A stretch of DNA of 64,000 bases from Streptomyces sp. NBC_00440. Lineage in GTDB: Bacteria > Actinomycetota > Actinomycetes > Streptomycetales > Streptomycetaceae. The first letter of the stretch is position 1, and the number at the start of each line of letters is the position of its first letter. This document shows positions 927-48,373 of this stretch, one piece after another. A program made the translations under genes and the position numbers. The notes under the pieces were generated by a model. The model was not told the DNA's origin and made no database searches. It was given only the letters and a program-made list of their open reading frames with translations. The stretch is from the NCBI RefSeq assembly GCF_036014215.1, contig NZ_CP107921.1, positions 6,817,501 through 6,881,500 on the forward strand, read 5' to 3'.

Positions 927-939
927 CCGGCCCCAAGCT

Positions 940-2641: not shown

Positions 2642-2679
2642 TCGCCCGCCCCCTTTCACATATCCGTGAGGAGACCGAC

Positions 2680-24360: not shown

Positions 24361-24807
24361 ATGTCGGGCGGAGCCCACTACCTCTACGGAGATGACCCCG
24401 TAGAGATCAACGCCAACCGGGCCACGGTCAGGCTCACGGTCGCCAACACCGGCGACCGTGCCATCCAGATCGGGTCGCACTACCACTTCTTCGAGATCAA
24501 CCGCGCGCTGCGCTTCGACCGTGAAGCCGCCTTCGGTATGCGCCTGGACATCCCCTCCGGCACCGCCGTGCGCTTCGAGCCCGGCGACAGCCGGGAGGTC
24601 GGCCTGTGCGCCTTCGGCGGCGCCGGGCGGCTCGTCGGATTCGCCGGGCTCGTCAACGGCGGCCTTTCGGCACCCGACACCAAGCGCGACGCGCTGCGCC
24701 GCGCGTCGGAGCTGGGATTCACACACGCCGACACCGCCGGTACGGACAGCACAGGGAACACGCCCGGCGCCGACAGCACCGCGGGCACCGAGGGGACTCA
24801 GCACTGA
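24361..24807 (+). CDS. ureB: Urease subunit beta with an extended tail
   Basis: A 148-residue beta subunit. The core (~1-105) has '[20 protein letters not shown]' and '[18 protein letters not shown]'. The last ~25 residues are a Thr/Gly/Asp/Ser-rich low-complexity extension (repeats of the type '[20 protein letters not shown]') beyond the usual ~100 residues. The stop overlaps the ureC start (TGATG), implying coupled translation. Confidence 0.95.
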
Positions 24808-26531: not shown

Positions 26532-26596
26532 CCCCCCCGCGGTCTTCGACAGCCGGATCACCGCGAACCACCCCCTCGCACGAAAGGAGCCCCGGC

Positions 26597-27295
26597 GTGA
26601 ACGACCCGATGCCCACAGCCGCGCTGCTGACCGGGCTCCAGCTCACCGACTCGGCCTTCCCCAGCGGCTACTACACGCTCTCCCACGGTCTGGAGGGCTT
26701 CCAGCAGGCCCGTGCGGTGACCCCGCGCACCCTGCCCGGCCTCCTGAACGACCTGCTGCGCCACAGCGCGGGGCCGTCCGACGCCACCGCGCTCGCGCTC
26801 GCGCACCGCGCCGTCACCGCCGGCGACTGGGCGGAGGTGACGGCCGTCGAGCAGCGGCTGCACGCCACCAAACTGGGCCGTGAGGCCCGGCAGGCCTGTG
26901 TCCGTACCGGGCGGCAGCTCCTCGACCTGGCGGCGGAGGTGTACGGAACCCCGGAGATCGAGCAGTACCGCACCCTCTACCGGGACGGCGCCGTGCGCGG
27001 CTGCCAGCCGGTCGTCGCCGCCGCGGTCCACGCCGGCAACACGGTGTCCGTACGGCAGGCGGTCACCTGCGAACTGTTCGCCTTCGCGGCAAGTTTCGTG
27101 GGGGCCGCCCTACGGCTCCGGCTGACCGACCACCGCCAGGCGCAGGTCGTACTGCACCGGGCGGTGCCGGTCATCGAGGAGACCGCGGAAGCCGCCCTGG
27201 AGCGGGAGCTGTCCGACATCGGCGGCTTCGTTCCGGTGGCGGACATCATGGCCGGCCGTCATGAGCGGGCGGAGGCCCGGCTGTTCGCCAGCTAG
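26597..27295 (+). CDS. ureF: Urease accessory protein UreF
   Basis: A 232-residue all-helical accessory protein that with UreD and UreG delivers nickel to UreC. Family features are 'LQLTDSAFPSGYYTLSHGLE' and 'ELFAFAASFVGAALRLRLTDH'. GTG 26597 follows AAGGAG. It is followed by a strong hairpin before ureG. Confidence 0.93.
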   Translation: MNDPMPTAALLTGLQLTDSAFPSGYYTLSHGLEGFQQARAVTPRTLPGLLNDLLRHSAGPSDATALALAHRAVTAGDWAEVTAVEQRLHATKLGREARQACVRTGRQLLDLAAEVYGTPEIEQYRTLYRDGAVRGCQPVVAAAVHAGNTVSVRQAVTCELFAFAASFVGAALRLRLTDHRQAQVVLHRAVPVIEETAEAALERELSDIGGFVPVADIMAGRHERAEARLFAS

Positions 27296-27310
27296 GCGGA
27301 GCGCGGCACG

Positions 27311-27354
27311 CGGTGCTGTCCCGGCCGTGCGGCCGTACCGCCGGGACAGCACCG
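27311..27354 (+). terminator. 15-bp hairpin between ureF and ureG
   Basis: CGGTGCTGTCCCGGC (27311-27325) and GCCGGGACAGCACCG (27340-27354) form a perfect stem with a 14-base loop. It starts 16 bases after ureF and ends 43 bases before ureG, so it lies inside the operon and may act as a partial terminator or an RNA-stability element. Confidence 0.6.
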
Positions 27355-27396
27355 GGCGCCACCCACCCGAAGACACCACACCAGAGAAGGATCATC

Positions 27397-28086
27397 ATGC
27401 ACGACCCCATGCAGGCCCGGCACCACCACAGCCACGACGAACTCCTGCGGCGCCCGAAGGACGGCGTCCTGCGGGTAGGGATCGCAGGTCCGGTCGGCTC
27501 GGGGAAGACGGCTCTGATCGAGGCGCTCGTCCCCGTACTGTTCGCGCGCGGCCGTACCCCGGCCGTCATCACCAACGACATCTTCACCTCCGAGGACGCC
27601 GCCCACGTCCGGCGCACGCTCGACGGGATCCTGGACGCGGACCGGATCGTCGGCGTCGAGACCGGGGCCTGCCCGCACACCGCGGTCCGGGACGACCCGA
27701 CGATGAACCAGGCGGCGGCCGACGAGCTCCTGGAGCGCCACCCCGACGTGGACACGCTGCTCTTCGAGAGCGGCGGCGACAACCTGACGCTCACCTTCAG
27801 TCCCGCACTGGTCGACCTCTTCCTGTTCGTCCTCGACACGGCCGAGGGCGACAAGATGCCGCGCAAGCGGGGCCCCGGCATCACCGAGTGCGAACTGCTC
27901 GTCATCAACAAGGTCGACATCGCCCAGTACGTGCGGTGCAACCTGGAGACCATGGAGTCGGACGCCCTCAAGGTCCGGGAGGGGCGGCCCGTGGTGCTGA
28001 CCAACTCCCTCACCGGCGACGGCCTCGACACCATCGCCGACTTCATCCTGGCCCACGAAGCCGCCCAGGAGGCGGCTCCCGCGTGA
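27397..28086 (+). CDS. ureG: Urease accessory GTPase UreG
   Basis: A 229-residue SIMIBI-class GTPase that drives nickel insertion. P-loop 'GIAGPVGSGKTAL' (~27-39), 'VITNDIFTSEDAAH', the metal-binding CPH motif in 'ETGACPHTAVRDDPTMN', 'FESGGDNLTLTFSP' and guanine motif 'LVINKVDIAQYV'. The N-terminus is histidine-rich ('HDPMQARHHHSHDE'), which may bind nickel in place of the absent UreE. ATG 27397 follows AAGGAT. The stop overlaps ureD (GTGA). Confidence 0.95.
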   Translation: MHDPMQARHHHSHDELLRRPKDGVLRVGIAGPVGSGKTALIEALVPVLFARGRTPAVITNDIFTSEDAAHVRRTLDGILDADRIVGVETGACPHTAVRDDPTMNQAAADELLERHPDVDTLLFESGGDNLTLTFSPALVDLFLFVLDTAEGDKMPRKRGPGITECELLVINKVDIAQYVRCNLETMESDALKVREGRPVVLTNSLTGDGLDTIADFILAHEAAQEAAPA

Positions 28087-29024
28087 CCACGGCGCCCGCG
28101 CGGCTGGATCCCGCGCACTACGAACCCCGGCGGACACCGGCCCGGCTGCTCGGCCTGGCCGGTCCGGCGGACACCCTGGCCGCCGGGCGCCCCGGCAAGG
28201 TCGGCCTGCTCGAACTGCGCTACGCGCGCGTCGGCGACCGCACCGAACTCGTCGACCGCTACCAGAAGTCGCCGCTGCAGATCATGCGGCCGCTGTACAT
28301 CGACCCGCACCGGCCCGACCTGCCGGTGACCTATCTGATGTCGACCGGCGGCGGCATCCTCCAGGCCGACCGCAACCGGATCGACATCGACTGCGGCCCC
28401 GGCACCTCCGTGCACCTGACGACGCAGGCCGCCACCAAGGTGCACCGCATGGAGTTCGACCACGCGACCCAGATGGTCAACCTGACTGTGGGGGAGGGCA
28501 GTTACGTCGAGTACTTGCCCGATCCGCTGATCCCGTACCGGGACGCGCGTTTCTACCAGCACACCCTGGTGACGGCCGATCCGTCGGCGACCGTACTCCT
28601 CGGCGAGACGATCGCGGCCGGGCGGCTGGCCCGGGACGAACGGCACGCCTACCGGATGCTCTTCAGTGACCTGGAGGTCCAGCGCCCCGACGGCACGCTG
28701 CTGGCGGCCGACACCGTACGCCTCGAACCGCACGGCCCGGGCGGGGTGACAGGACCCGCGGTCTTCGCGGGTCATGACCTGATGGCCTCGCTGTATGTGC
28801 TCACACCGCTGGCCCCCGCCGCCCTGGTCGCCGACACCCTCCACGAGGCGCTGGCGGCCACCGGCCTGGTCTTCGGCGTGAGCGTGCTGCCCGACGACAC
28901 GGGCGCGTGGGTGCGCGTGATGGGAAGCGACTCCCCGGCCGTCACCCGTGCGCTGCGTGCCGCGTGGGATGCCGTACGCCGCCTGCTCATCGGGGTGCCG
29001 GCGCCGGACCTGCGCAAGACCTGA
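28083..29024 (+). CDS. ureD: Urease accessory protein UreD
   Basis: A 313-residue UreD/UreH scaffold that binds apo-urease with UreF and UreG. Family motifs are 'YLMSTGGGILQADRNRIDI', 'TTQAATKVHRM' and 'YLPDPLIPYRDARFYQHT'. GTG 28083 overlaps the ureG stop by four bases. It is the last gene of the urease operon and converges with a response regulator six bases away. Confidence 0.93.
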   Translation: MTTAPARLDPAHYEPRRTPARLLGLAGPADTLAAGRPGKVGLLELRYARVGDRTELVDRYQKSPLQIMRPLYIDPHRPDLPVTYLMSTGGGILQADRNRIDIDCGPGTSVHLTTQAATKVHRMEFDHATQMVNLTVGEGSYVEYLPDPLIPYRDARFYQHTLVTADPSATVLLGETIAAGRLARDERHAYRMLFSDLEVQRPDGTLLAADTVRLEPHGPGGVTGPAVFAGHDLMASLYVLTPLAPAALVADTLHEALAATGLVFGVSVLPDDTGAWVRVMGSDSPAVTRALRAAWDAVRRLLIGVPAPDLRKT

Positions 29025-32915: not shown

Positions 32916-33977
32916 TCACCGCACTGACCCCGCCTGCCCGCCGCCGCCGTTCAGCACGGCGGGGGATGTCGCGTCGTGGATGAGGATGTGCGGGGTGCCG
33001 GTGCCGTCGGCCGGGGTCGCCCATACGTCCCAGCCGCCGCCGGAACCGCGTGGCCGGCCGTACATCACGGTGTGTCCGTCCAGCCAGGCCGCCTGGTCGT
33101 CGATGCTGTGGATCTCGGCGAGTGGGGTCTCCCGCATGGTTGCCAGGTCCAGGACGTACAGCCGCCAGGGGCGGTTGGCGCTGGCGTTGACGCGTTTCTT
33201 GAACACGATGCGGGTGCCGTCGGGTGACAGGGACGGGCATTCGGCGTTGGTGCGCAGGGTGCGCGCCGCCCACTTCCGGTAGTCGCCCTTGACCAGGTAG
33301 GTGCGGCCACCGGTACGTACCGTGGCGTAGAAGGTGTTGTCGTCGGCGGCGAAGTTGACGCCCCAGTAGTTCACGTCCGCCGCGTGGTACGGCTTGCCTT
33401 CGAGCGTGAGCGGGATCCGTTCGATGTTGCTCCGGAGCCTGCCGGTCCTGGTGTCCAGGATCGACGTACGGGTGGAGAAGTCGTCGCGGAGGTAGGAGTC
33501 GCCCTGGACGAACGTGGTCCAGGACAGCATCGCGCCGCTGGCGGAGACCCGGGCGCGGTTGGGGAAACCGGCGGCCTTGATCTGGCGGGTCCGGTGCATG
33601 TCGCGGTCGAGGACACTGACGTAGGTCGCCGGCACCGGCCCTTTGCGCTGCAGGCAGATGCCGGTGCCGTGGGCGGTGTAGAGGCGGTCGCAGCGCGCCG
33701 CCCCGGTTGTTCTGGCGCCGCCGGGGCGCGCGGTGGACACGGTCGCGGCATGGCCGAAACCGGCGCCCGGCGCGGTGTCGCGGAACAGGATCCGGCCCGG
33801 CCTGTCCAGTTGGATGCGGCCGGCAGGACCGGCAGCGGTGTCGTCCCGCGAGTGCATGACGTAACCGGTGATGGTGGTGGCCAGGACCAGAGCGGTCACG
33901 ACCAGGACCAGCACCCTCGTCCGGGTGCTCATGCCTGGATCCTTCGGGGAGTTCGCGGCGTTCGTCTGCGGGCTCAT
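32916..33977 (-). CDS. Membrane-anchored beta-propeller (TolB-like) protein
   Basis: A 353-residue protein with one N-terminal membrane helix ('VLVLVVTALVLATTITGYV', ~22-40), then an extracytoplasmic region with TolB/WD-like blades ('CPSLSPDGTRIVFKKRV', 'LYVLDLATMRETPLAEIHSI', 'WDVWATPADGTGTPHILI'). The start overlaps the MFS transporter stop by four bases (ATGA); an internal ATG at 33932 is an alternative. A role as accessory or sensor protein to the transporter is possible but unproven. Confidence 0.75.
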   Translation of the reverse strand: MSPQTNAANSPKDPGMSTRTRVLVLVVTALVLATTITGYVMHSRDDTAAGPAGRIQLDRPGRILFRDTAPGAGFGHAATVSTARPGGARTTGAARCDRLYTAHGTGICLQRKGPVPATYVSVLDRDMHRTRQIKAAGFPNRARVSASGAMLSWTTFVQGDSYLRDDFSTRTSILDTRTGRLRSNIERIPLTLEGKPYHAADVNYWGVNFAADDNTFYATVRTGGRTYLVKGDYRKWAARTLRTNAECPSLSPDGTRIVFKKRVNASANRPWRLYVLDLATMRETPLAEIHSIDDQAAWLDGHTVMYGRPRGSGGGWDVWATPADGTGTPHILIHDATSPAVLNGGGGQAGSVR

Positions 33978-35239
33978 GTGCGGCTGCCTTCTTCACGGAG
34001 CGGGAGGATCCACAGCGCGGCGAGTACCGCCGTCACCAGGGCGGCGAGCGCCAGCGCGAGCGCCGCGTGCAGCCCCCAGAGGGTCCAGGCGGCGCCGAAC
34101 AGTACCGAGGAGGCCAGCATCGCCACGGACTGGCCCGTCTGGATCAGTGCCATGCCGCTGGCGCGCAGTTCCACCGGCAGCAGCGGTCCGACGGCGGCCA
34201 TCAGAACCCCGTCGGTGGCCGCGTAGAACAGGCCGTGCAGGACGAGCGTGGTGATCAGCAGAGCAGCTCCACCGACCGGGCCGAACAGCAGCAGATACGC
34301 GCCGAGCAGCGCCACGTACCCGCCGGTGAACACCCGTAGCCTGCCGAGCCGGTCGGCCAGTTGCCCGAACGGGACCGCCAGCAGCAGATAGGTGGCCGTC
34401 GTGCCCAGCGGCAGCAGCGGGAAGTATTCGACGGCGATGTCCAGGCGCTCCTGGAGCAGCAGGTAGACGAACGAGTCGCTCAGCGCCACCGTGCCCAGCA
34501 GGGCCGCGCCGATGCAAACCCGGCGGAAGCGCGGCAGCAGGAGGAGCCGGAGCGCGGCGCGGACGGTCACGCCCTGCGGGCCGACCAGGGCCTCGCGCCG
34601 GTCGCGGACCGTCAGGGCCAGCACCACCACCGCGAACGCCGCGATGCAGAAGCTCGCGACGAACACCGTGTCGTACCGGTCCGGATCTGCCATGAGCAGC
34701 GCGAACGCGACCAGCGGACCGAGGAAGGCGCCGGTGGTGTCCAGCGCACGATGGATGCCGAACGAGCGGCCCAGCGTCCCGGGGGTGCTGCTGAGTGAGA
34801 TCAGCGCGTCCCGCGGTCCGGTGCGCAGGCCCTTGCCCGTACGGTCGGCGGCGATCACCGCGCCCAGGGCGGGCACGGACGCGCCTGCGGCGAACAGGCC
34901 CAGTTTGCACAGGGCGGACAGGGCGTACCCGCTGCCCGCCACGAGTTTGCGCCGCTGCCAGCGGTCCGCGGCGTGCCCTCCGGCCAGGCGTACGAGAGCG
35001 GTGATCCCGAAGTACATGCCGTTGAGAGCGCCGAACTGGAGGGGGCTCAGGCCGAGGGTGAAGATGACGTACATCGGCAGGACCGCGGTGATCATCTCCG
35101 ACGAGATGTCGGTGATCAGGCTGACCGACCCCAGTGCCACCACATTGGGTGCCACGGCCGCCCGCGCCCGTCCGGGCCCCGGCCGCGCGACCCCGGCGGT
35201 GCCGGGCGCCGGGGTGGACCGGCTCGATGAGACGTACAT
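33974..35239 (-). CDS. MFS transporter
   Basis: A 421-residue transporter with 12 predicted helices after a ~30-residue tail. The A-loop motif is 'GGHAADRWQRRKLVAGSGY', and 'TGKGLRTGPRDALIS' is the conserved segment of the TetA/ 'RDALI' group of efflux carriers. 'FGQLADRLGRLRVFTGGY' repeats the motif in the second half. Cotranscribed with the beta-propeller protein. The substrate is unknown; drug or metabolite export is likely by family. Confidence 0.85.
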   Translation of the reverse strand: MYVSSSRSTPAPGTAGVARPGPGRARAAVAPNVVALGSVSLITDISSEMITAVLPMYVIFTLGLSPLQFGALNGMYFGITALVRLAGGHAADRWQRRKLVAGSGYALSALCKLGLFAAGASVPALGAVIAADRTGKGLRTGPRDALISLSSTPGTLGRSFGIHRALDTTGAFLGPLVAFALLMADPDRYDTVFVASFCIAAFAVVVLALTVRDRREALVGPQGVTVRAALRLLLLPRFRRVCIGAALLGTVALSDSFVYLLLQERLDIAVEYFPLLPLGTTATYLLLAVPFGQLADRLGRLRVFTGGYVALLGAYLLLFGPVGGAALLITTLVLHGLFYAATDGVLMAAVGPLLPVELRASGMALIQTGQSVAMLASSVLFGAAWTLWGLHAALALALAALVTAVLAALWILPLREEGSRT

Positions 35240-35433: not shown

Positions 35434-37224
35434 TCACTGCGCGATCGTGTACGGGTCCCCGTACGTCTTCCAGGACAGCGGCGGGTTCAGATCGAGGTTG
35501 CCGGCGGCGAGGAACACCCGCTGCTCCGTGTCGACCCGGCTGGTGTCGTCGTGCGCCGCCTCGGTGAGCATCGCGGCCTTGCGGGCGTCGAGGAAGGCGT
35601 GGAGATACGTCGTCTCGTCGCCGCCCTGTGCGGGGATCCTGGCATGCTTCATCGCCGTGGCGCGGATCCCGCCGAAGCTGACCGGGTCCATTCCGGGGCC
35701 GTGCATGACCATCGCGTCGTAGTAGCTGAACTGCCCCAGCGCGTGCAGCCCGTCCTGCTTCGCCCGGTCCACGGACGGGGTGAAGTACACCCGGTCCCGT
35801 TCGTCGTTCTGGGCCTGCTGGAACGCCGGGTCCGACGCTGCCGTGTGCCAGGCCGAGACGAAGCCCGATCCCAGACCGGCGTGCGAGTCGCTGCCGTTCA
35901 CCGTGCGCAGCGCGGGCAGATACGCGGCCAGCGGGTTGCCCGGCTCGCGCTGCGTGTACAGCTGGACCAGGTCGAGCATGTCACCGGTGCCGGAGCAGAA
36001 CCCGACGATCCCGCCCGTGTAGCCGCGCCCGTCCCCGATGTCCTCGACATAGGTGTACTGCGCTTTCCAGTCGAGCGAGGAGTTCTCCGCACTGGAGACC
36101 AGCTCCATCGCGATGTCCTTCTTGCGCGGGTCCGTCAGGTCCGCTGCCGAACCGGCCGCTCTGCCGGCCGGGGCACTGGCCGGCGGGCCTGCCGGTGCCG
36201 GCGCAGGGGCGGCTCCGTAGCCCTTCGGGGGCGCGACGGAGGTGTCCCAGATGTCCGTGACGGGCTTCGCCGACGCGGCCTTCCCCAGCGGAGAGAGCGC
36301 GTACATGTCCTCCAGCGTGCGGAGCAGCGAGTAGTGGTTGTAGTGGGCCTTCGACTTGGCGCCCTGCTGCACATGGTCGCCGACGATCATGGTGGCGATC
36401 TGGTTGTCCGAGTCGTCCCCGTCGTCCTCGTCCCAGGTCAGCATGAGGGCGCTGTTGTGCGTCCTGGCCCACTGGACGTAGCCGTCGAGGTTCTTCTTCA
36501 GCCAGCTGTCGCCCTGCTTGACGCTGCCGTCGTGCATGTCGTTGTCCAGGTTGGGCGTCACGAAGGACACCGTGGGCAACTTGCTGTAGTCCGAGGGGAA
36601 TCGGTCGAATCCCAGGTTGGACGAGGCCGGGGTGCTGGCGAAGTCCACCCATCCGTTGTGCTTCCGGGCGTACCCGCTGTCGCCGTCGTCACCGCAGTCC
36701 TTCGAACCCGCGGACGGCAGGTCCTCGGAGTATCCGGTGAAGCTGTGGCCGCTGCCGATCAGCTGGTGGCCCAGGTTGTCGGCGCTGAAGTCGTGCGGGC
36801 AGTCGTCGTCGGCGACTCCGTGTGTGGAACCGGAGTACAGCGCCACGTAGTTGCCCTGGCTGGGGTGTGTGGTTCCGTGGAAGTCGGAGAACGAAGCCCC
36901 CTGCTTTGCGAGGGAGTTGATGTACGGGGCGTCCTTGCTGCCCACGATGTCGTCGTAGAACTTGTTCTCCTCCATGAGCACCACGACGTGGTCGTACTGG
37001 GGTATCCCGGATGCGGTGGTGGTCAGCGCCTTCGGCGGGGGAGGCGCTGTCTCCGCCGATGCGGCGGATCCGGCCATTCCGAGCAGGCTCAGCGCCACCG
37101 TTGTGCCGGCCGCGACAACGGCGCGGCGGGTACGGCGCGTTCCGGCCAGAATCCAGGTGGCCGGGCCGTCGTCGGACGGATCATGGGTGCGGCGTGCGCG
37201 CAGGGGTGGGTAGGGAGGCGTCAT
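35434..37224 (-). CDS. Secreted phosphoesterase-GH46 chitosanase fusion
   Basis: A 596-residue exported protein. Signal: basic 'RRTRRAVVAAGTTVALSLLG' with cleavage near residue 57. Residues ~72-330 form an AcpA/phospholipase C-type phosphoesterase domain: 'YDHVVVLMEENKFYDDI', 'GTTHPSQGNYVALYSG', 'LDNDMHDG' and 'TWDEDDGDDSDNQIATMIVG'. A Pro/Ala-rich linker (~335-360) leads to a full GH46 chitosanase (362-596) very close to Streptomyces CsnA: 'ELVSSAENSSLDWKAQY' with catalytic Glu380, 'IGDGRGYTGGIVGFCSG' with Asp398, and 'GPGMDPVSFGGIRATAM'. ATG 37224 follows AAGGAG by six bases. Each half is complete, so both activities are expected outside the cell. Confidence 0.9.
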   Translation of the reverse strand: MTPPYPPLRARRTHDPSDDGPATWILAGTRRTRRAVVAAGTTVALSLLGMAGSAASAETAPPPPKALTTTASGIPQYDHVVVLMEENKFYDDIVGSKDAPYINSLAKQGASFSDFHGTTHPSQGNYVALYSGSTHGVADDDCPHDFSADNLGHQLIGSGHSFTGYSEDLPSAGSKDCGDDGDSGYARKHNGWVDFASTPASSNLGFDRFPSDYSKLPTVSFVTPNLDNDMHDGSVKQGDSWLKKNLDGYVQWARTHNSALMLTWDEDDGDDSDNQIATMIVGDHVQQGAKSKAHYNHYSLLRTLEDMYALSPLGKAASAKPVTDIWDTSVAPPKGYGAAPAPAPAGPPASAPAGRAAGSAADLTDPRKKDIAMELVSSAENSSLDWKAQYTYVEDIGDGRGYTGGIVGFCSGTGDMLDLVQLYTQREPGNPLAAYLPALRTVNGSDSHAGLGSGFVSAWHTAASDPAFQQAQNDERDRVYFTPSVDRAKQDGLHALGQFSYYDAMVMHGPGMDPVSFGGIRATAMKHARIPAQGGDETTYLHAFLDARKAAMLTEAAHDDTSRVDTEQRVFLAAGNLDLNPPLSWKTYGDPYTIAQ

Positions 37225-37732
37225 ACGGATCTCCTTGACGGGCGGTTGCCGTCGGTTCGGCAGACGTGGGAGGTACCTGGGGGAGTGCCTGAGGACGTGC
37301 CTGTGCCTGAGGAGGTGTTCTGGGACGTGCCTGTGGAGGTTTCTGAACGCCTGCGGACCATCCGGCTGCGTTTCGGCCATGCCGCAGGTGTCAGCATTGG
37401 CTTGGTGCTGCGGCGAACCGGTGCCGCAGTGAGCGCGAGCGGCATCGGGCCGCGGGCAGCCGGGACAGAATCAACTGAGCGCGTCGGGTTACGAACTTCC
37501 GCGCCAGGCCGCTGACGGAGATTCCTACTCGTCGGCGCGGCGGCCTGTCAACCGTTCCGCAGGGGTGGCCGAGTTCGCCTGCGGCTCTTGACTGAGCATC
37601 GACAGGTCGGTAAAAATTCGGACCGTCAGGAAAGTTAACTAACAGTTGGTGAATCGAGGTAGGCGATGACGGTGCTAGGCCTCAACTGCCTTGATTCGTA
37701 TGCCGGTTGCTGGAAATGGCGATGGGCCGCGG
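37225..37732. promoter_or_regulatory. 508-bp upstream region of the fusion gene, with a candidate operator
   Basis: Contains no confident gene. GGAAAGTTAACTAAC at 37629-37643, with the palindrome AGTTAACT at 37633-37640, lies in the only A+T-rich stretch. Streptomyces chitosanase genes are controlled by a ROK repressor (CsnR) through an A+T-containing palindrome upstream, and a ROK gene sits immediately upstream here, so this is a plausible operator. Short direct repeats of GACGTGCCTGTG also occur near 37294 and 37323. Confidence 0.4.
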
Positions 37733-38920
37733 TCAGATGCGCGGCTGGGACTGCAGGAGTCGCGTGATGCCGTCGGGGCTGAAGATGTCGCGGGCGGCCA
37801 GGGCGACAGCGCCGGTCAGTCCGGGCTCGGAGCCCGGTTCCGTGGTGGTGATGGTCAGCTTGCGGGTGGCCAGCGGGAGAGCTCGCTGGTAGACGACGGC
37901 GCGCACGCCGGAGAGCAGCTCGTCGCGCTGCTCGCTCATCGGCCCGCCGAGTACCAGGGTGCGCGGGTTGTACATGTGCACCAGCATGGCGACGACTTCG
38001 CCGATTTCGGTCGCGGCCTGCCGGATGCGGTAGAGCGCCCGGGGGTCGCCGTTCGCGACGGCTTCCGCCAGCAGCCGGGCGCCCGCCGACGCGTCGCCCG
38101 GTCCGGTATGGAATCCGAGGTCGCGCAGCACGGCGTGGTGTGAGGCCACGGCCTCCACGCAGCCGGTCTTGCCGCAGCTGCACAGGGTGTCGGAGTGGCT
38201 GGATGCCCGCAGATGGCCGATGTCGCCCGCGGCTCCGTCCGCGCCGCGGTGCACCCGGCCGTCGGCGGTGATGATTCCGGCACCGATTCCGGCCCCGACC
38301 TTGACCGCCAGGAGGGGCGCGTCCACATCGTGCCGTTCGGCTTCGCCGAGCGCCATCAGATTCACGTCGTTGTCGACCACGACAGGGGCGTGGAAGTGTT
38401 CGCGCAGATAGGCGCCGACCGGGAAGGCGTCCCATCCGGGCATGATCGGCGGCCGTACGGCGCAGCCGTGCTGGAAGTCCACCGGGGCCGGCAGTCCGAC
38501 GACGACCTCCCGCACCGAATCCCGTCCCCGGCCGTGCTCCTGGAGCAGCTCGCACAGCCGGTCGGTGACCGCACCCAGCACAGCTGCCGGGCCGTCCTCG
38601 ACCGGTACGGCGACCACGTCGCGGGCGAGGATCCGGCGGCTGAGGTCGGCGATGACGACCCTGGTCCCGCTGACGTCCACATCCGCGACCGCGATGGTTC
38701 CCGCATGCGGGCTGATCGAGAGCACCCGGGGTGGCCGGCCCCGTACGGAGGCGCCGACCTCCGTCTCCTCCAGGATGCCGCGCTGCAGCAGCTGGTCGAC
38801 CTGGTGTCCCACCGTGGAGCGGGCCAGCGAGGTACGGCGGGCGATCTCCGCGCGGCTGGTGGCCTCCCCCGAGGCCACGGCGCCGAGTATCCGGCGCAGG
38901 GCGACGGTCGCCGAGTTCAT
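37733..38920 (-). CDS. ROK family transcriptional regulator of the sugar/chitosanase region
   Basis: About 395 residues: winged helix (~1-70: 'RRILGAVASGEATSRAEIAR', 'RSTVGHQVDQLLQRGILEE') and ROK domain with zinc motif 'CSCGKTGCVE' and 'VGAGIGAGIITADGRVHRGA'. The kinase DxGxT position reads 'ADVDVSGTRV', so ATP binding is degenerate and a repressor role is likely. ATG 38920 is chosen; the frame also allows GTG 38971, but that stretch looks like promoter DNA. It is divergent from the dehydrogenase/isomerase operon and upstream of the chitosanase fusion, so it may control both. Confidence 0.88.
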   Translation of the reverse strand: MNSATVALRRILGAVASGEATSRAEIARRTSLARSTVGHQVDQLLQRGILEETEVGASVRGRPPRVLSISPHAGTIAVADVDVSGTRVVIADLSRRILARDVVAVPVEDGPAAVLGAVTDRLCELLQEHGRGRDSVREVVVGLPAPVDFQHGCAVRPPIMPGWDAFPVGAYLREHFHAPVVVDNDVNLMALGEAERHDVDAPLLAVKVGAGIGAGIITADGRVHRGADGAAGDIGHLRASSHSDTLCSCGKTGCVEAVASHHAVLRDLGFHTGPGDASAGARLLAEAVANGDPRALYRIRQAATEIGEVVAMLVHMYNPRTLVLGGPMSEQRDELLSGVRAVVYQRALPLATRKLTITTTEPGSEPGLTGAVALAARDIFSPDGITRLLQSQPRI

Positions 38921-38961
38921 GGTCGGACCGCTTAAGGCTTCAAAGCTCTCACTGTCGCCGT

Positions 38962-38990
38962 CTTTATGCACTACAGAAAACTAAAACCGG
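38962..38990. promoter_or_regulatory. A+T-rich divergent promoter/operator between ROK gene and sugar operon
   Basis: CTTTATGCACTACAGAAAAC followed by TAAAACC lies 42 bases before the ROK start and about 100 bases before the first dehydrogenase. It is much richer in A+T than its surroundings and is the obvious place for an autoregulated ROK operator. Confidence 0.4.
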
Positions 38991-39089
38991 CGTCTTGTGT
39001 GTGTCAACGGGCTGAACAAGGCTGGAATCCGTCGGACACCGGAATCGATCACCGTCCGACTGAACGAAAGCAACAGGAAGGTTCTCCAG

Positions 39090-40271
39090 ATGTCCCGCGG
39101 GTACAAGGGAGCAGCCATCGTCGGCACCGGCATGATCGCCGGGGTGCACGCCCAGGCGGTGCGCGGAGCAGGCGCGACAGTGCGCGGGGTGGTCGCCTCC
39201 TCACCCGAGCGCGGCGCGCGGGTCGCCGCGGAGTGGGGAATCCCGCGGAGCTATCCGCAGCTGGAGGCGGCGCTGGCCGACGAGAGCGTGGACGTGGTGC
39301 ACATCTGCACCCCGAACGGGCTGCACGCCACCCAGGCCGAGGCCGCGCTCCGCGCCGGGAAGCACGTCATCTGCGAGAAACCGCTCGCCACCTCGGTGGC
39401 GGACGCCGAACGGCTGGCCGCCGTGGCCGAGGAGACGGGGCGTCTGCTGGCCGTGCCGTTCGTCTACCGCTACCACCCGCTGGTCCGCGAGATCCGGGCG
39501 CGCGTACGGGCGGGCGAGTTCGGGGCCTGGCAGCTCCTGCACGGCAGCTATCTGCAGGACTGGATGCTCGACGCGGACACCACCGGGTGGCGTGTGGACC
39601 CCGAACGCGGCGGCCCGTCCCGGGCGTTCGCCGATATCGGCTCGCACTGGTGCGACCTGGTCGAGTGGGTCGCCGGAGTGCGTTTCAGCGAGGTCTCGGC
39701 GCGGCTTGCGACCACCGTCCCCGAGCGCCCCGCAGGCGACGCACCCGGTGCGCCCCGCACGCCGGTCCGTACCGAGGACGCCGCGGCCGTACTGTTGCGC
39801 ACCGCCGAAGGCGTACTGGGCACGCTCACCGTCTCGCAGGTCTCGGCCGGCCGGAAGAACCGCCTCTGGTTCGAACTGGACGGCGCTGGATCGAGCGCCG
39901 TCTTCGACCAGGAGCAGCCCGAGACCGTGTGGCTCGGCACTCCCGAGGGGGCCAGGGTGCTCGCCCGCGACCCCGGCCGGGGCAGCCCGGAGCAGCGGCG
40001 GCTGGCCACGCTGCCCGCAGGACATCCGCAGGGGTACGCGGACTGCTTCCGCGCGTTCGTCGCCGACGCCTACGCGGCGGCCGACGGGGGAGCGCCGGAC
40101 GGACTGCCGGTGGCCGCCGACGGGGTGCGCTCGGCGCGGCTCGTCGAAGCGGTCCTCGAATCCTCCCGCTCACTGGCCTGGACCCCCGTCGGCAAGGCGA
40201 CCGGCGCGATGACCATGACCGCCGCCACCGCCGCCGTGACCTCCGCGACCCCCAAGGAGTACGCCGTATGA
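39090..40271 (+). CDS. Gfo/Idh/MocA family sugar dehydrogenase
   Basis: A 393-residue NAD(P)-dependent oxidoreductase. The Rossmann part starts 'GAAIVGTGMIAGVHAQAVRG' and contains 'VDVVHICTPNGLHATQAEAA' and the catalytic-lysine motif 'HVICEKPLATSVADAER' (EKP). The substrate domain includes 'GGPSRAFADIGSHWCDLVEW', the DIGxHxxD pattern of sugar/inositol dehydrogenases. It is the first gene of a five-gene operon and overlaps the isomerase that follows (ATGA). Confidence 0.9.
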   Translation: MSRGYKGAAIVGTGMIAGVHAQAVRGAGATVRGVVASSPERGARVAAEWGIPRSYPQLEAALADESVDVVHICTPNGLHATQAEAALRAGKHVICEKPLATSVADAERLAAVAEETGRLLAVPFVYRYHPLVREIRARVRAGEFGAWQLLHGSYLQDWMLDADTTGWRVDPERGGPSRAFADIGSHWCDLVEWVAGVRFSEVSARLATTVPERPAGDAPGAPRTPVRTEDAAAVLLRTAEGVLGTLTVSQVSAGRKNRLWFELDGAGSSAVFDQEQPETVWLGTPEGARVLARDPGRGSPEQRRLATLPAGHPQGYADCFRAFVADAYAAADGGAPDGLPVAADGVRSARLVEAVLESSRSLAWTPVGKATGAMTMTAATAAVTSATPKEYAV

Positions 40272-41191
40272 AACTCGGAATGCTGACCGCCTGCCTGCCG
40301 CAGCTCTCACTGGAGCAGATCGCCGGATGGGCCGCGGCGCGCGGGTACGAGGCCCTGGAGGTCGCGGTGTGGCCCGGCACCGGAGGGCGGGACTTCGAGG
40401 CCGCGCATCTGCCGGTGGCCGGTTTCGGCCCCCGCGAGGCCGACGCCACCCGTGCGGTCCTGGACCGACACGGCCTGGCCATCTCGGCGTTGGCGTACTA
40501 CGAGAACAACCTGCACCCCGACACAGGCCGGCGCGAGGAGATCCGCACCCATCTGCGGCACGCGATCGACGCGGCCGCGGCCCTGGAGGTGCCCTACGTC
40601 GGTACGTTCATCGGCCGCGACTGGAACCGCTCCGTCGCGCAGAACCTCGCCGAGGCCGAGAAGGTCTTCCCGCCACTGGTCGAGTACGCGGGGGAGCGCG
40701 GCGTGAAGCTCCTGATCGAGAACTGCGTGATGGAGGGCTGGCACCCGGACGGCTACCCGGGCAACCTCGCCTACTCGCCCGAGCTGTGGGAGTGGATGTT
40801 CTCGCTCGGCCTGTACCTCAACTGGGACCCCTCGCACCTCACCTGGATCGGTATCGACCCGGTGGAGACCATCGCGCCCTACATCGAGCACATCGCGCAC
40901 GCCCAGGCCAAGGACGTGGAGCTGCGGCCGGGCGACCGGCAGCGCTGGGGGCACTTCGGCCCGGCCGTGGACCGCAGCGGCAACCCCTGGGACATGGGCT
41001 GGTGGCGCTACCGCGTCCCGGGCCTCGGGCAGGTCGACTGGGTGCGTGTGGTCGACCGGCTCTACGAAGCCGGCTTCACCGGCACGCTCTCCGTCGAGCA
41101 CGAGGACCCCGTCTGGGGCGGCGAGGAGACCCGTACCAAGCAGGGCCTGGACATCGCCTACCGCACCCTGCGCCCCCTGATCGTCGGCTGA
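40268..41191 (+). CDS. Xylose-isomerase-like sugar phosphate isomerase/epimerase
   Basis: A 307-residue AP endonuclease 2-type TIM barrel, as in IolE/IolI-like epimerases. Candidate metal ligands are Glu in 'KLLIENCVMEGWHPDG', Asp and His in 'NWDPSHLTWIGIDP', His in 'IAHAQAKDVEL' and Glu in 'TLSVEHEDPVWGG'. Paired with the dehydrogenase it probably processes a keto-sugar or inositol derivative. Starts inside the preceding stop. Confidence 0.88.
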   Translation: MKLGMLTACLPQLSLEQIAGWAAARGYEALEVAVWPGTGGRDFEAAHLPVAGFGPREADATRAVLDRHGLAISALAYYENNLHPDTGRREEIRTHLRHAIDAAAALEVPYVGTFIGRDWNRSVAQNLAEAEKVFPPLVEYAGERGVKLLIENCVMEGWHPDGYPGNLAYSPELWEWMFSLGLYLNWDPSHLTWIGIDPVETIAPYIEHIAHAQAKDVELRPGDRQRWGHFGPAVDRSGNPWDMGWWRYRVPGLGQVDWVRVVDRLYEAGFTGTLSVEHEDPVWGGEETRTKQGLDIAYRTLRPLIVG

Positions 41192-41274
41192 CGGGCGTCC
41201 CGACAGCTGACACCGAGACCCGGCACCAGACACCAACACCCGTTCTGAACAGCACCAGTGATGTGGAGCGCTCC

Positions 41275-42393
41275 ATGACCTTCTCACCCGCACACCCGGC
41301 CCGGGTCGGCATCGTCGGCACCGGAAACATCTTCGACAGGTACGTCCAGGGCATGGCCCGCTACCCGCGCCTGCGCCTGACCGGCTGCGCCGACCTGGAC
41401 CACGCCCGCGCGCTCAAGGCCGCGGCCGAGCACGGGATCAGGGCGTACGACTCCGTCGACGCGTTGCTCGCCGACCCCGACGTGGACATCGTCGTCAACA
41501 TCACCCCGCCGCTCGCGCACGCAGCGGTCTCCGCCCAGGCCATCGCGGCAGGCAAGCACGTCTACGTCGAGAAGCCCGTGGCAGCGACCGTCGCCGAGGC
41601 GGCGCCGCTGACCGCGATGGCCGGCGGGAGCGGCGTCCTGTTCGGCTCGGCTCCCGACACGTTCCTCGGCAGCGCGGCCCAGACGGCCCGCAAGGCGCTC
41701 GACGACGGCCTGATCGGCCAACCGGTGGGCGCGACCGCCTTCGTCACCCACAGCAAGGCCGAGACCTGGCACCCGAACCCCGGCTTCCTCTTCGCGCCCG
41801 GCGGCGGCCCCGGGCTCGACCTTGGCCCGTACTACCTGACGAGCCTGGTCAACCTGCTCGGCCCGATCGCGACCGTCTCCGGCCTGAGCCGGATCGGCGC
41901 GCCCGTACGGAAGGTGACGAGCCCGGACCGCGTGGTCGAGAGCATCGAGGTCACCACACCCACGCACGCGGCAGCCGTCCTCGGCTTCGCCTCCGGTGTC
42001 ATCGGCTCACTCCAGATGAGCTTCGACGTGTGGAACCACCACCTGCCGTTCATCGAGATCTACGGCACCGAGGGCACCCTGACGATCCCCGACCCGAACG
42101 GCTTCGACGGCGACGTCCGCCTCCGGGGCAACCACGAGGAGCAGTGGCGGACGCTGCCGCCCGTCTTCCCGCCGTCCGGCCCGCTCGACATGGAAGTCCA
42201 GATGCTGCGCGGCGCGGGTGTCGACGACCTGGCCGGCGCCGTCGACGGCGCACCGCACCGCGCATCGGCCGAACTCGCCTTCCACGTACTGGAAGCGCTC
42301 GAAGCGGTCGAGACCTCCAGCCGCACGCGGCAGGTCGTGGAACTCACCTCGACCGCCGAACGCCCCGCGGCGATGCCCCGGCAATCGGCATAG
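41275..42393 (+). CDS. Second Gfo/Idh/MocA family dehydrogenase
   Basis: A 372-residue paralogue of the first dehydrogenase in the operon. It has 'RVGIVGTGNIFDRYVQGMAR', 'DIVVNITPPLAHAAVSAQAI', the EKP motif in 'HVYVEKPVAATVAEA', and 'GGPGLDLGPYYLTSLVNLLG' in place of DIGxHxxD. The family variant with 'DLGPYYL' is common among uncharacterised sugar dehydrogenases. ATG 41275 follows GGAG. A block of 16-base tandem repeats separates it from the next gene. Confidence 0.88.
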   Translation: MTFSPAHPARVGIVGTGNIFDRYVQGMARYPRLRLTGCADLDHARALKAAAEHGIRAYDSVDALLADPDVDIVVNITPPLAHAAVSAQAIAAGKHVYVEKPVAATVAEAAPLTAMAGGSGVLFGSAPDTFLGSAAQTARKALDDGLIGQPVGATAFVTHSKAETWHPNPGFLFAPGGGPGLDLGPYYLTSLVNLLGPIATVSGLSRIGAPVRKVTSPDRVVESIEVTTPTHAAAVLGFASGVIGSLQMSFDVWNHHLPFIEIYGTEGTLTIPDPNGFDGDVRLRGNHEEQWRTLPPVFPPSGPLDMEVQMLRGAGVDDLAGAVDGAPHRASAELAFHVLEALEAVETSSRTRQVVELTSTAERPAAMPRQSA

Positions 42394-42398
42394 GCGGC

Positions 42399-42514
42399 GC
42401 ATCCAGCACGCCACGCATCCAGCACGCCACGCATCCAGTACGCGGCGCATCCAGCACACAGCGCATGCAACACGCAGCGGAATCCATCACCGCACAGCGC
42501 ATCCAATACGCAGC
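42399..42514. repeat. 16-bp imperfect tandem repeats within the sugar operon
   Basis: Consensus GCATCCAGCACGCCAC. Five consecutive units (42399-42478), a 20-base variant (42479-42498) and a sixth (42499-42514). The period of 16 is not divisible by three and the block lies between stop and start codons, so it is not coding. Confidence 0.9.
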
Positions 42515-42538
42515 ACAGAACCGAGGAGCGGCAACCGC

Positions 42539-43477
42539 ATGAGCAGCAACACACCCAAGTTCGGCGTCGACCTGATCACCTTCTACAACCCGTCGTTCTG
42601 GAACCTGCCCGACGAGAGCGCCATCCAGGAGCTGTCGGACCGCGACCCCGACGCGATCTGGCGCAAGATCCTCGACTCGGCGGCAGCCGCCGGTGTCACC
42701 AGCCTCGAAGTCACCTTCGGCCCGGCCGACATCGGCAGCATCCGCCGCGCCTTCGGCTCGGCCACCGAGTTCAAGAAGGAACTCGACGGCCGCGGGATGG
42801 AGTTGAAGAGCGCCTTCTACCTCGAAGGAAGCTGGGAGCCGGACGCCGACCGCGGCGAGATAGCCGACAGCGCGGCCGCCTACGCCCGTTTCATCAAGGA
42901 GGCGGGCGGCGACGTGCTGGTCGCCGCGCCCCCGATGCGTACGACATGGAACGCCGAGCCCCCGCAGTTCAACGATTTCGACTTCCTCAAGAACGTCGCC
43001 GACATCGCCCATGTGGTCGGCCACGCCAGCCTCCAGGAGGGCGTGACCACTGCGCTGCACACCGAGGCGCACTCCACCTTCTGCACGGCCCGCGACGTCG
43101 ACCTGCTGATGGCTCTCACCGACCCGCTGTTCGTCAGCCTGTGCCCGGACACGGGGCATCTGGCGCTCGCCGGCGGCGAGCCCACGCAGATCGTCTCCCG
43201 CCACCGCGAGCGTGTCGTCATCTCGCACTGGAAGGACGCGACCGGCCCCGCGCCGCTGCGGGTTCCCATCGACGACTCGATCCACGACAGCCACCGCGAG
43301 TACTTCCGCAGGGTCGGCGCCGGCTCCGTCGACTGGTTCGCCTGGGGCCGCCTCATGCGCGAGATCGGCTTCACCGACCTCGCCCTGCTGGAACTGGACG
43401 CGGTCGCCGACCCGGTCACGGAGATCACGGCGGCCCGCGAATTCATCGAGCAGTCCCTCTCGACCGTCTTCCCGTGA
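42539..43477 (+). CDS. Second sugar phosphate isomerase/epimerase
   Basis: A 312-residue TIM-barrel isomerase: 'KFGVDLITFYNPSFWNLPDE', 'VTSLEVTFGPADIGS', metal-site candidates 'TTALHTEAHSTF', 'LCPDTGHLALAGGEP', 'VVISHWKDATG' and 'LALLELDAVADPV'. IolE-like inosose dehydratase or a related epimerase is possible. GAGGAG lies 11 bases upstream of ATG 42539. Confidence 0.88.
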   Translation: MSSNTPKFGVDLITFYNPSFWNLPDESAIQELSDRDPDAIWRKILDSAAAAGVTSLEVTFGPADIGSIRRAFGSATEFKKELDGRGMELKSAFYLEGSWEPDADRGEIADSAAAYARFIKEAGGDVLVAAPPMRTTWNAEPPQFNDFDFLKNVADIAHVVGHASLQEGVTTALHTEAHSTFCTARDVDLLMALTDPLFVSLCPDTGHLALAGGEPTQIVSRHRERVVISHWKDATGPAPLRVPIDDSIHDSHREYFRRVGAGSVDWFAWGRLMREIGFTDLALLELDAVADPVTEITAAREFIEQSLSTVFP

Positions 43478-43542
43478 CGGCCACGCCGCCGGCTTCCCGT
43501 CACAGCCTCTCCCGCTGTGTCCTGCCGTAACAGCACATCCCG

Positions 43543-43575
43543 CGCGCTGAGCGGCGGCCCTCGCCGCTCGGCGCG
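43543..43575 (+). terminator. 14-bp hairpin between isomerase and MFS transporter genes
   Basis: CGCGCTGAGCGGCG (43543-43556) and CGCCGCTCGGCGCG (43562-43575), one G-U pair, loop GCCCT. It may separate the transporter from the enzyme genes or reduce readthrough. Confidence 0.55.
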
Positions 43576-43629
43576 TCCGCCCGGCTCCACCCGTACAAGG
43601 GTCGCTTTGGCCCGTCGAAAGGCGTACCC

Positions 43630-44919
43630 ATGAGTGACAGAGTCGTCAGCTCACCGGAGAAGTCAGGTGAGCTCCCACCGTCCGCCCCCGCTGCCCCGGC
43701 GCGTGCGAGCGGATCCTTCATCGCTCTCTACATCCTGGCTCTCTTCGGCAGCTACGTCGCGATCATCACCCCGTCCGTCGTCTCGCTGGCACTGAAGATC
43801 CAGCAGATCGACCCCGCCGGCAAGGTCGGCTCGCTCTCCCTGGTCCTCAGCGTCGGCGCGCTGTGCGCAGTCATCGCCAACCCCCTCTTCGGGAAGCTCA
43901 GCGACCGCACGACCTCCCGGTTCGGTATGCGCCGGCCATGGATGATCGTGGGCCTCATCGGTGGAGCGGCCGGCCTGGCGCTCGTCGCCTACGCCACCAA
44001 CACCGGTACGGTCCTCATCGGCTGGTGCGTGGCCCAGATCTTCTTCAACGCGCTGCTGGCCCCGCTCGTCGCCGTACTCCCCGACCAGATACCGGCCCGC
44101 CAACGCGGAGTCGTCGGGGGCCTGATGGGCATCTGCTATCCCGTCGGCCTGATCCTCGGTACCTGGATCGCACAGCGCCTGGCCACCACCGCACCCCGGG
44201 CGATGATCCTGGCACCGATGGCCATCGCCGCCGCGACGGTGCTCCTGCTGTGTGCCAAGCTCAAGGACCGCAGGCTCGACCGGGCACACCAAGAGCCCTG
44301 GAACGCGGTGCAGTTCCTGCGCACTTTCTGGTTCAACCCGCGCAAGAGCCCCGACTTCGGCTGGGCGATCCTCAGCATCCTGCTGATCTCCACGGCGATC
44401 ATGACGTTCGTGACCTACGAGGTCTACTACCTCTCCGACTACCTCCACATCAGCGAATCCAGGCTCCCCGGTCTGACGTTCGTCCTCACCCTCGTCATCA
44501 ACGGAACGAGCGCGCTCACGGCCCTCGTCTCCGGCTGGCTGGCCGACCGCTTCCACCGGCGGAAGTTCTACATGGTCTTCGCCGGGATCCTGGCCATCGC
44601 CGGATTCCTCATCCTCATCACCACGCGCTCGATGGCCGGCATGTTCACCGGCGCGATCGTCCTGGGCTTCGGCACCGGCTTCTTCTACAGCGGGCACTAC
44701 ACCCTGCCCAGCTCGGTCCTGCCCAGTGAGCAGGACGCCGCGAAGGACATGGGTGTCGTCAACATCGCGGTCACCCTGCCCAGCTCCCTGGTCCCGATCT
44801 ACGCACCCACCTTGCTCGGCACCGGCGGCGGCGACAACTATCCGGCGCTCTTCGTCTCCGGGATCGTGCTCGCGCTGCTCGGCATCCCGGCGGTCAAGCG
44901 AATCCGCGGGGTCAACTGA
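43630..44919 (+). CDS. MFS sugar-type transporter
   Basis: A 429-residue carrier with 12 predicted helices and a ~30-residue N-terminal tail. Loop 2-3 reads 'FGKLSDRTTSRFGMRRPWMI', resembling glycoside/pentoside/hexuronide-type and related permeases, and 'GWLADRFHRRKFYMVF' marks the second half. Being last in a run of sugar dehydrogenase and isomerase genes, it probably imports the substrate of that pathway. Confidence 0.85.
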   Translation: MSDRVVSSPEKSGELPPSAPAAPARASGSFIALYILALFGSYVAIITPSVVSLALKIQQIDPAGKVGSLSLVLSVGALCAVIANPLFGKLSDRTTSRFGMRRPWMIVGLIGGAAGLALVAYATNTGTVLIGWCVAQIFFNALLAPLVAVLPDQIPARQRGVVGGLMGICYPVGLILGTWIAQRLATTAPRAMILAPMAIAAATVLLLCAKLKDRRLDRAHQEPWNAVQFLRTFWFNPRKSPDFGWAILSILLISTAIMTFVTYEVYYLSDYLHISESRLPGLTFVLTLVINGTSALTALVSGWLADRFHRRKFYMVFAGILAIAGFLILITTRSMAGMFTGAIVLGFGTGFFYSGHYTLPSSVLPSEQDAAKDMGVVNIAVTLPSSLVPIYAPTLLGTGGGDNYPALFVSGIVLALLGIPAVKRIRGVN

Positions 44920-48286: not shown

Positions 48287-48321
48287 CGAGCGCGCCTCAG
48301 TGACGGCGCGATGGCCAACAC
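48283..48321 (-). CDS. Short upstream ORF overlapping the alpha-galactosidase start
   Basis: A 12-codon ORF (GTG start, peptide MLAIAPSLRRAR) has the best ribosome binding site in the region (GGAGG five bases upstream). Its TGA overlaps the ATG of the alpha-galactosidase as ATGA, which itself has no site of its own. Translation could be coupled through it. Alternatively the enzyme starts at ATG 48340. Confidence 0.4.
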   Translation of the reverse strand: MLAIAPSLRRAR

Positions 48322-48339
48322 CGTGCCTCCGTAAGTTCA

Positions 48340-48373
48340 TTTGTGCAAGATGTGATCGAGTTTCTTGCACAAA
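48340..48373. promoter_or_regulatory. Inverted-repeat operator upstream of the alpha-galactosidase gene
   Basis: TTTGTGCAAGA (48340-48350) and TCTTGCACAAA (48363-48373) are perfect reverse complements with a 12-base spacer, so each half-site falls on the same DNA face about two turns apart. Probably bound by a sugar-responsive repressor or activator. Confidence 0.65.

Follow-up and report, generated by a model that had tools for sequence, protein, structure and literature searches.

Why a single exported protein should join a phosphoesterase to a GH46 chitosanase is the question raised by a locus of Streptomyces sp. NBC_00440, found in a stretch of 64,000 nucleotides of contig NZ_CP107921.1 (positions 6,817,501 to 6,881,500; here called the window). 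The minus strand at positions 35434 to 37224 reads as a single translation of 596 residues from ATG to TGA; the plus strand there is likewise open, which was taken as a mechanical antisense frame. Third-position GC was 0.83 to 0.97 in 11 of 11 overlapping 100-codon windows of the gene, linker included, and Streptomyces sp. NBC_01306 carries the same open frame at 99% identity. Translation and Pfam matches confirmed what a first-pass annotation had described, a continuous frame with signal peptide, phosphoesterase, linker, and GH46, and its coordinates were exact, the strand that it left unstated being minus. With moderate confidence, we favor the reading that the gene encodes a secreted SapM-like phosphomonoesterase that would be delivered to chitosan and induced by it, with the GH46 of the window copy predicted to be still cutting.

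Residues 97 to 310 matched PF04185 (E = 4.5e-38; 131.8 bits against a cutoff of 23), the match starting at profile position 105 and leaving the first 104 positions unmatched. The eight residues tested in SapM (E59, N60, S95, K159, H160, H204, D238, and E239; PMC6635428) all have counterparts in the fusion (Table 1), as judged by motif and spacing and not by alignment to the SapM sequence. The steps between them in the fusion and in SapM are 35 and 35 (N to S), 66 and 64 (S to K), 42 and 44 (H to H), and 34 and 34 (H to D). The nucleophile motif is PSQ (HPSQGNY), in place of the PSE of SapM orthologues, and the domain is therefore termed SapM-like and not a SapM orthologue. The AcpA/phospholipase C (PLC) label of the first-pass annotation holds for the fold, which is common to AcpA and PLCs; by residues and spacing the domain is closest to SapM-type phosphomonoesterases, so that PLC activity is not the first expectation, and monoester phosphatase activity is predicted. 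The model for phosphocholine-specific phospholipase C (TIGR03396) reached 20.9 bits against a cutoff of 580.25, over residues 38 to 96 alone, and a profile of 17 phosphoesterases matched no chain among the PDB sequences below E = 0.1.

The GH46 half matched PF01374 over the full profile (residues 374 to 583; positions 1 to 210 of 210; E = 7.4e-99; 330 bits against a cutoff of 27), and its best match among PDB sequences, over residues 360 to 594, was the Streptomyces sp. N174 chitosanase (1CHK). The catalytic set E380, D398, R400, and T403 is present and corresponds to N174 Glu22, Asp40, Arg42, and Thr45, which bears out the two catalytic acids named in the first pass, and by these residues the chitosanase half of the window protein should still cut chitosan. 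A signal peptide, in which R33, R34, A38, G49, and A54 are invariant across a 15-row alignment, predicts secretion, for which the Sec and Tat routes are both possible. The structure model of the whole protein was middling (mean predicted local distance difference test [pLDDT], 70.2; predicted template modeling score, 0.48), with pLDDT below 50 in the linker (residues 330 to 360) and at residues 119 to 124, nucleophile included.

The first pass knew of no described enzyme with this pairing and had proposed a search for proteins with both domains. A protein search scored the 7990 candidates sharing most words; among the best 120 of 1556 matches, 14 clusters (90% clusters) contained full-length PF04185 and PF01374, namely, the window's own (P0003) and 13 others (P0004 to P0016), so that the pairing is no lone oddity and belongs to a lineage. 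An F5/8 type C (CBM32-like) domain was present in all 13 other clusters, and Pfam found no CBM32 in the window fusion, which thus falls outside the CBM32-GH46 group. P0022 is a shortened further member with its middle missing. The homologue sets were chosen by similarity and not at random; the sources named for fusions were Streptomyces, Streptacidiphilus, and Catenulispora. Among the best 80 of 497 confirmed loci of the species-genome collection, both halves were found in 8 (L011, L012, and L014 to L019) and L013 was cut by a contig end; the other 71 (L020 to L090) matched from residue 291 onward, and the profile found no phosphoesterase in the DNA fetched for them. The frame of L014 is broken by a stop (7048 to 7050) between the phosphatase and the CBM32-GH46 part, and L161 is the same gene.

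A phosphoesterase with at least 75% identity occurred in 6 of 345 Streptomycetaceae genomes, the window's own included (next best, 60%), and all 6 also carry the GH46, in one case (G153/L161) with the broken frame. The fusion was present in 5 of 14 genomes of the Catenulispora family. One of 394 genomes drawn evenly across the class, the window's own, passed E = 1e-95, a strict limit that a Catenulispora fusion might fail to reach. Plasmid carriage was considered and rejected, since none of the 16 matching plasmid records covered 80% of the query. In a quick tree of 68 sequences, the 24 fusion phosphoesterases formed one clade against 44 others (Shimodaira-Hasegawa approximate likelihood ratio test [SH-aLRT], 100). 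In the GH46 tree (72 rows; bootstrap not settled), the 25 fusion rows need three label changes, of which the starred branches force just one. The phosphatase tree and the gene order described below make a single origin of the fusion well supported, for which GH46 alone would be insufficient. The lineage spans Streptomyces-type genomes, Streptacidiphilus, and Catenulispora, and in most members CBM32 lies between the halves.

Judged from titles and the openings of abstracts, none of the papers listed in literature searches describes a phosphoesterase-GH46 fusion, in agreement with the first pass, and the available portions of PMC5635096 and PMC6097792 describe none. Public annotations call the fusion a chitosanase or a phospholipase C, which hides the pairing. 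The further statement that GH46 enzymes are normally single domain needs amending: GH46 proteins with an extra CBM32 module are already described, being mentioned in PMC4663542 (whose available text has no word beginning with "phosph") and represented by Kitasatospora setae Csn2, a CBM32-GH46 chitosanase that is cleaved in its Ser-Ala-Pro linker (PMC5635096). Four long GH46 frames were set aside as candidates for other fusions, three (L138, L142, and L143) with unrelated in-frame sequence ahead of GH46 and one (L137) with GH46 followed by a CBM32-like stretch; the phosphoesterase profile found no phosphatase in any frame counted as nonfusion, L139, L140, and L141 included.

The fusion stands at the head of a three-gene cassette, followed by a major facilitator superfamily (MFS) transporter and a TolB-like beta-propeller (Table 1). 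Of nine fusion contigs fetched, L011 being from the near-identical strain, 8 had enough flank, and all 8 show this order, as do 4 of 4 additional fusion loci. The same order with a GH46-free phosphoesterase was found in 14 of 15 loci chosen for closely spaced outer genes, the fifteenth being without the MFS gene. A second sample, picked on phosphoesterase similarity alone and seen with about 1.5 kb of flank, comprised the 24 nearest loci without GH46; here the neighbor of the phosphoesterase was an MFS gene in 9, a propeller in 3, and neither in 12. The cassette is wider than the fusion, and the simplest order is therefore that a chitosanase joined the phosphatase of an existing cassette, to which it was apparently added. 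We know of no description of this phosphatase-MFS-propeller cassette, which recurs in Streptomycetaceae, although no literature search was aimed at it. The propeller protein matched no Pfam family (the TolB model, at E = 6e-5, stayed far under its cutoff, and TolB structures matched at E = 1e-4), and the MFS transporter matched no PDB sequence up to E = 10. In one further locus (L207, genome G091), the 8 kb fetched contained a propeller at 72% identity and a short match to the MFS gene, and neither a phosphatase nor GH46 was matched; the front of this cassette seems to have been lost.

Other C-terminal extensions are common among the 24 nearest relatives without GH46, and the phosphatase family thus appears prone to gain modules. 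In L164 to L186, these extensions vary, with Ser/Pro linkers and further domains, one of which by eye resembles ricin. Five other clusters (P0017, P0018, P0019, P0020, and P0023) each have two SapM-like phosphoesterases in tandem; as judged by eye, the HPS and DE motifs are absent from the first copies in P0017 to P0020 and mostly present in the second copies, another possible pseudoenzyme pairing.

Upstream of the fusion lies a palindrome that resembles the CsnR box, whose core is AGGAAANTTTCCT, in which positions 5 and 9 matter most, and whose binding by CsnR is affected by chitosan oligomers (PMC6097792). On the gene's strand, the site reads AGTTAACTTTCCT and, compared by eye, matches 10 of the 12 fixed positions of the core and retains positions 5 and 9. 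A longer form, GTTAGGAAAGTTTCCTAAC, was derived from exact palindromes present ahead of 4 of the 14 stand-alone GH46 genes scanned. Against this 19-mer, the window site scored 15 of 19 on the gene's strand and had three mismatches on the plus strand, and it was the sole match with at most three mismatches in the 64 kb of the window, with none in 100 dinucleotide shuffles. All 10 Streptomyces-type fusions scored 14 to 17 of 19: L018, L019, and L162 scored 17; L012 scored 16; the window, L014, L158, L159, and L160 (whose upstream region was cut by a rougher rule) scored 15; and L013 scored 14. Of 37 stand-alone GH46 genes, 25 scored at least 15. The maximum in 2000 shuffles that kept single-base content was 13, reached five times.

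None of 39 regions upstream of GH46-free phosphoesterases scored above 11 (two of these regions were short; L208 and L181 represent one gene, as do L214 and L186), and none of the five Catenulispora fusions had an operator, their scores of 13, 13, 11, 11, and 12 being at shuffle level. Presence of the operator thus tracks the chitosanase part, and Catenulispora, in which that part is the most altered, has none. Genome-wide, a degenerate pattern with at most two mismatches occurred at five places (a reversed control pattern, at one), which included the regions upstream of the fusion, a stand-alone GH46 gene, a secreted GH18-like gene, and a ROK regulator (candidate csnR); the fifth, near a gamma-glutamyltransferase-like frame (named by eye), was taken as chance. 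The GH18-like gene (L232:4866-5933, plus strand) lies in the same genome directly behind a strong CsnR-box-like palindrome and scored 21.7 bits in Pfam, below the cutoff of 29.6. From these sites, the fusion gene may be controlled by a CsnR-type repressor, with predicted relief by chitosan oligomers. Control by phosphate starvation was rejected as without support, because the best PHO-box-like repeats upstream (8 to 11 of 14) were at the level of shuffles (7 to 12).

The GH46 half has changed within part of the lineage. A set of 245 distinct GH46 sequences, sorted by the phosphoesterase profile with none dropped for length, comprised 27 fusion sequences (the window's and two near-identical ones included), 2 broken or partial fusions, and 216 others; P0022 lacks the region of N174 position 22, which left 26 fusions scored. 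Position 22 was not Glu in 12 of the 26 (Gln in 9, Asp in 2, and Ala in 1), 2 of which also had Asn at position 40, and was changed in 1 of the 216 sequences without a phosphatase (L143, Met). Both broken or partial fusions keep Glu22. At 60 to 70% identity to N174, the residue was changed in 10 of 12 fusion sequences versus 0 of 4 others; nonfusion GH46 sequences were changed in 0 of 5 cases at 50 to 60% identity and in 1 of 6 under 50%. Even at 35 to 38% identity, four stand-alone GH46 genes from the same genus, Catenulispora, keep Glu22, Asp40, Arg42, Thr45, and Asp57. The changed sequences lie within one clade of 13 (support, 99/96) that contains Catenulispora, Streptacidiphilus, and several metagenome rows, and in which P0016 and L147 keep Glu22; because of this clustering, the 12 changes are not independent. 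The state of position 22 requires at least four changes on the tree, or two if scored as Glu versus not. L143, the exception among the others (629-3286, plus strand), is a stand-alone GH46, probably membrane anchored, whose Met stands in the place of the general acid and whose neighboring residues have changed as well.

Ratios of nonsynonymous to synonymous substitution rates (dN/dS) were obtained by pairwise counting, with pairs that share sequences. In six Catenulispora pairs, two of which include L147 with its Glu22, the ratio was 0.16 to 0.47 for GH46 and 0.06 to 0.19 for the phosphoesterase and GH46 had the higher value in all six; the six Streptomyces-type pairs gave 0.07 to 0.34 and 0.13 to 0.33, respectively, with the higher value for GH46 in one. 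The GH46 half in Catenulispora is therefore under looser yet still purifying constraint. E19A chitosanases have been crystallized with chitosan oligomers (6LWU and 7C6D, by entry titles), E19 being, as we take it, the general acid. An inactive chitosanase joined to green fluorescent protein (GFP) has been used as a chitosan stain (PMC8092297). By analogy, the changed GH46 of the Catenulispora/Streptacidiphilus clade is probably a chitosan-binding module.

Under the favored reading, CsnR, a chitosan-responsive ROK repressor, would keep the fusion gene off until chitosan oligomers appear. The exported protein would then bind chitosan through its GH46 half, aided by CBM32 in relatives, and in the window genome would also cut it, and the phosphatase half would remove phosphate from esters held in the same material. 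The likeliest target would be the walls of Mucoromycota, where chitosan and polyphosphate co-occur; zygomycete walls are described as having chitosan, chitin, and polyphosphates as principal components, and the phosphate contents cited for them lie between 8.3% and 23.3% (PMC5037708). The two halves could help each other, with phosphate removal baring chitosan and chitosan cutting loosening the wall. The protein would have arisen by fusion of a CBM32-GH46 chitosanase to a phosphatase that was by then part of a phosphatase-MFS-propeller cassette; in the Catenulispora/Streptacidiphilus daughter clade, the chitosanase would have lost its general acid and probably turned into a chitosan-binding module. 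The MFS transporter and the propeller might, as a guess, serve the uptake or sensing of products. Of two functions suggested in the first-pass annotation, chitosan cutting with simultaneous phosphate release fits the window and Streptomyces fusions, in which both active-site sets are complete; the other, targeting, fits the Catenulispora/Streptacidiphilus clade better, with its direction reversed, such that chitosan binding would target the phosphatase.

Several points weigh against this account. Zygomycete walls enter it as a target from the literature, SapM-type enzymes are monoesterases and may attack polyphosphate poorly, and the real substrates could be phosphorylated sugars, nucleotides, or phospholipids. 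Linker cleavage of the kind reported in K. setae (PMC5635096) would part the halves after secretion, and the window copy is without CBM32. The operator departs from the 13-base core at 2 of 12 fixed positions on the gene's strand and lies 419 nt from the start codon; the degenerate genome-wide pattern was written to include it, so that its zero mismatches there are by construction. A cassette partner was seen in just 12 of the 24 nearest GH46-free phosphatase loci, within the flank available. The phosphatase and chitosanase activities, the chitosan binding, and the chitosan induction of the window fusion are all predictions from sequence.

It is also conceivable, if rather unlikely, that one gene simply delivers two independent enzymes, which would share the CsnR switch and the export route and act apart once the linker had been cut outside the cell. 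The cleavage of K. setae Csn2 in its linker (PMC5635096), the Pro/Ala-rich fusion linker with its low model confidence, and the completeness of both active-site sets in the window would suit such an arrangement, and the shared CsnR-like operator would alone explain its benefit. The pairing and the domain order are kept within one phosphatase clade, however, and the GH46 with a changed acid is still under purifying selection, which an inactive second enzyme would not need. Unlikely to a slightly greater degree is that the changed acids of the sister clade are no loss, another carboxylate having taken over in a hydrolase of altered specificity. Asp at position 22 in two changed sequences (P0006 and P0010), Glu kept in P0016 and L147, and the purifying selection could be read in that way; on the other side, Gln is found in 9 of the 12 changed sequences and Ala in 1, with Asn at position 40 in 2 of these 10, some sequences differ at positions 42 and 57 too, and a review calls the GH46 general acid invariably a glutamate (PMC4663542).

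It is less probable again that the fusion serves chitosan breakdown for carbon and nitrogen, with the phosphatase stripping masking phosphate so that GH46 can reach its substrate. The CsnR-like operator does place the fusion among chitosan genes, but the genome also encodes a GH46 enzyme that stands alone and has a box of its own, and the general acid is changed in 12 of 26 fusions while the phosphoesterase residues stay; chitosan cleavage is for this reason the dispensable part in the changed clade. An assembly or frame artefact joining two neighboring genes can be dismissed, since, although the L014/L161 gene, with its stop between the halves, reads as frames of 403 and 388 codons, the window frame is continuous with codon-position bias throughout and recurs in the near-identical strain, and independent genomes, represented by 13 further protein clusters, carry both domains; of two faults that the first pass had considered, a linker sequencing error is thus contradicted by the relatives, and an incomplete phosphoesterase site, by a residue set complete by motif and spacing.

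Table 1. Positions of the fusion gene, its parts, and adjoining features in the window
Feature	Position	Strand	Remarks
Fusion gene	35434..37224	-	596 aa; signal peptide, SapM-like phosphoesterase, Pro/Ala linker, and GH46 chitosanase
Signal peptide, residues 1-57	37054..37224	-	Long n-region with RR pairs; putative cleavage after ASA, placed by eye
SapM-like phosphoesterase domain, residues 73-330	36235..37008	-	E86, N87, S122, K188, H189, H231, D265, E266
Pro/Ala linker, residues 331-359	36148..36234	-	CBM32 at the same place in most relatives
GH46 chitosanase domain, residues 360-594	35443..36147	-	E380 general acid, D398 general base, R400, T403, D415
Ribosome-binding site AAGGAG of fusion gene	37231..37236	-	Ahead of ATG
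CsnR-box-like palindromic operator	37625..37643		419 nt upstream of fusion start codon
MFS transporter, cassette gene 2	33974..35239	-	Pfam MFS_1 and synteny; 194 nt past fusion stop
TolB-like beta-propeller, cassette gene 3	32916..33977	-	4-nt overlap with MFS stop; N-terminal hydrophobic segment (by eye)
ROK gene upstream of fusion	37733-38971	-	Divergent from sugar-type cluster

The ROK gene upstream of the fusion was rejected as a functional partner, since among the nine fusion loci it stands beside the fusion just in the near-identical L011. The sugar-type cluster beyond it (38966-44919, plus strand), with a Gfo/Idh/MocA oxidoreductase, a xylose-isomerase-like TIM barrel, an MFS transporter, and more, likewise adjoins the fusion solely in that strain among the nine loci. 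Elsewhere in the window are an alpha-galactosidase (46049-48370, minus strand) with Melibiase_2, Melibiase_C, and NPCBM-associated domains and, on the plus strand (24606-29024), frames that by eye resemble a urease cluster (UreC and accessory proteins).

Tentatively, the lineage might represent chitosan-induced phosphate mining, in which a phosphatase cassette captured a chitosanase as an aiming device and the GH46 of Catenulispora and Streptacidiphilus became a natural, noncutting pseudoenzyme carrier, the phosphate being stripped from chitosan-rich fungal walls. If true, a single secreted molecule, probably switched on by chitosan, would join the chitosan and phosphate nutrient programs, and fungal walls would be suggested as a phosphate source for soil actinobacteria. 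Within one protein family, the sister clade would offer a naturally occurring progression from active chitosanase to a probable binding module, and it runs counter to the description of the GH46 general acid as invariably glutamate. The fusion has also brought the recurring cassette of Streptomycetaceae to notice.

Among known systems, SapM-type phosphatases share with the fusion PF04185, secretion, and the eight residues in the same order and spacing; the fusion differs in its PSQ nucleophile motif and in being joined to GH46. Francisella AcpA and nonspecific phospholipases C (2D1G and 8K3G) are 12 to 19% identical to its phosphoesterase. The N174 chitosanase (1CHK) is a single hydrolase module without a phosphatase, whereas in the fusion GH46 is the C-terminal half. 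K. setae Csn2, with CBM32 before GH46 and a low-complexity linker, is like the C-terminal part of most fusions, with no phosphoesterase mentioned in the available text (PMC5635096); the window copy, unlike Csn2, is without CBM32. The CsnR regulon of Streptomyces lividans and Streptomyces coelicolor is defined by the box AGGAAANTTTCCT, and the candidate sites of the window genome likewise include GH46 and ROK genes; the regulon members described in the available part of PMC6097792 include no phosphatase fusion with MFS and propeller genes. The closest parallel to the sister clade is man-made, the engineered chitosan affinity protein in which an inactive chitosanase joined to GFP binds chitosan (PMC8092297); in the Catenulispora and Streptacidiphilus fusions, unlike that protein, the acid change is natural and the cargo is a phosphatase.

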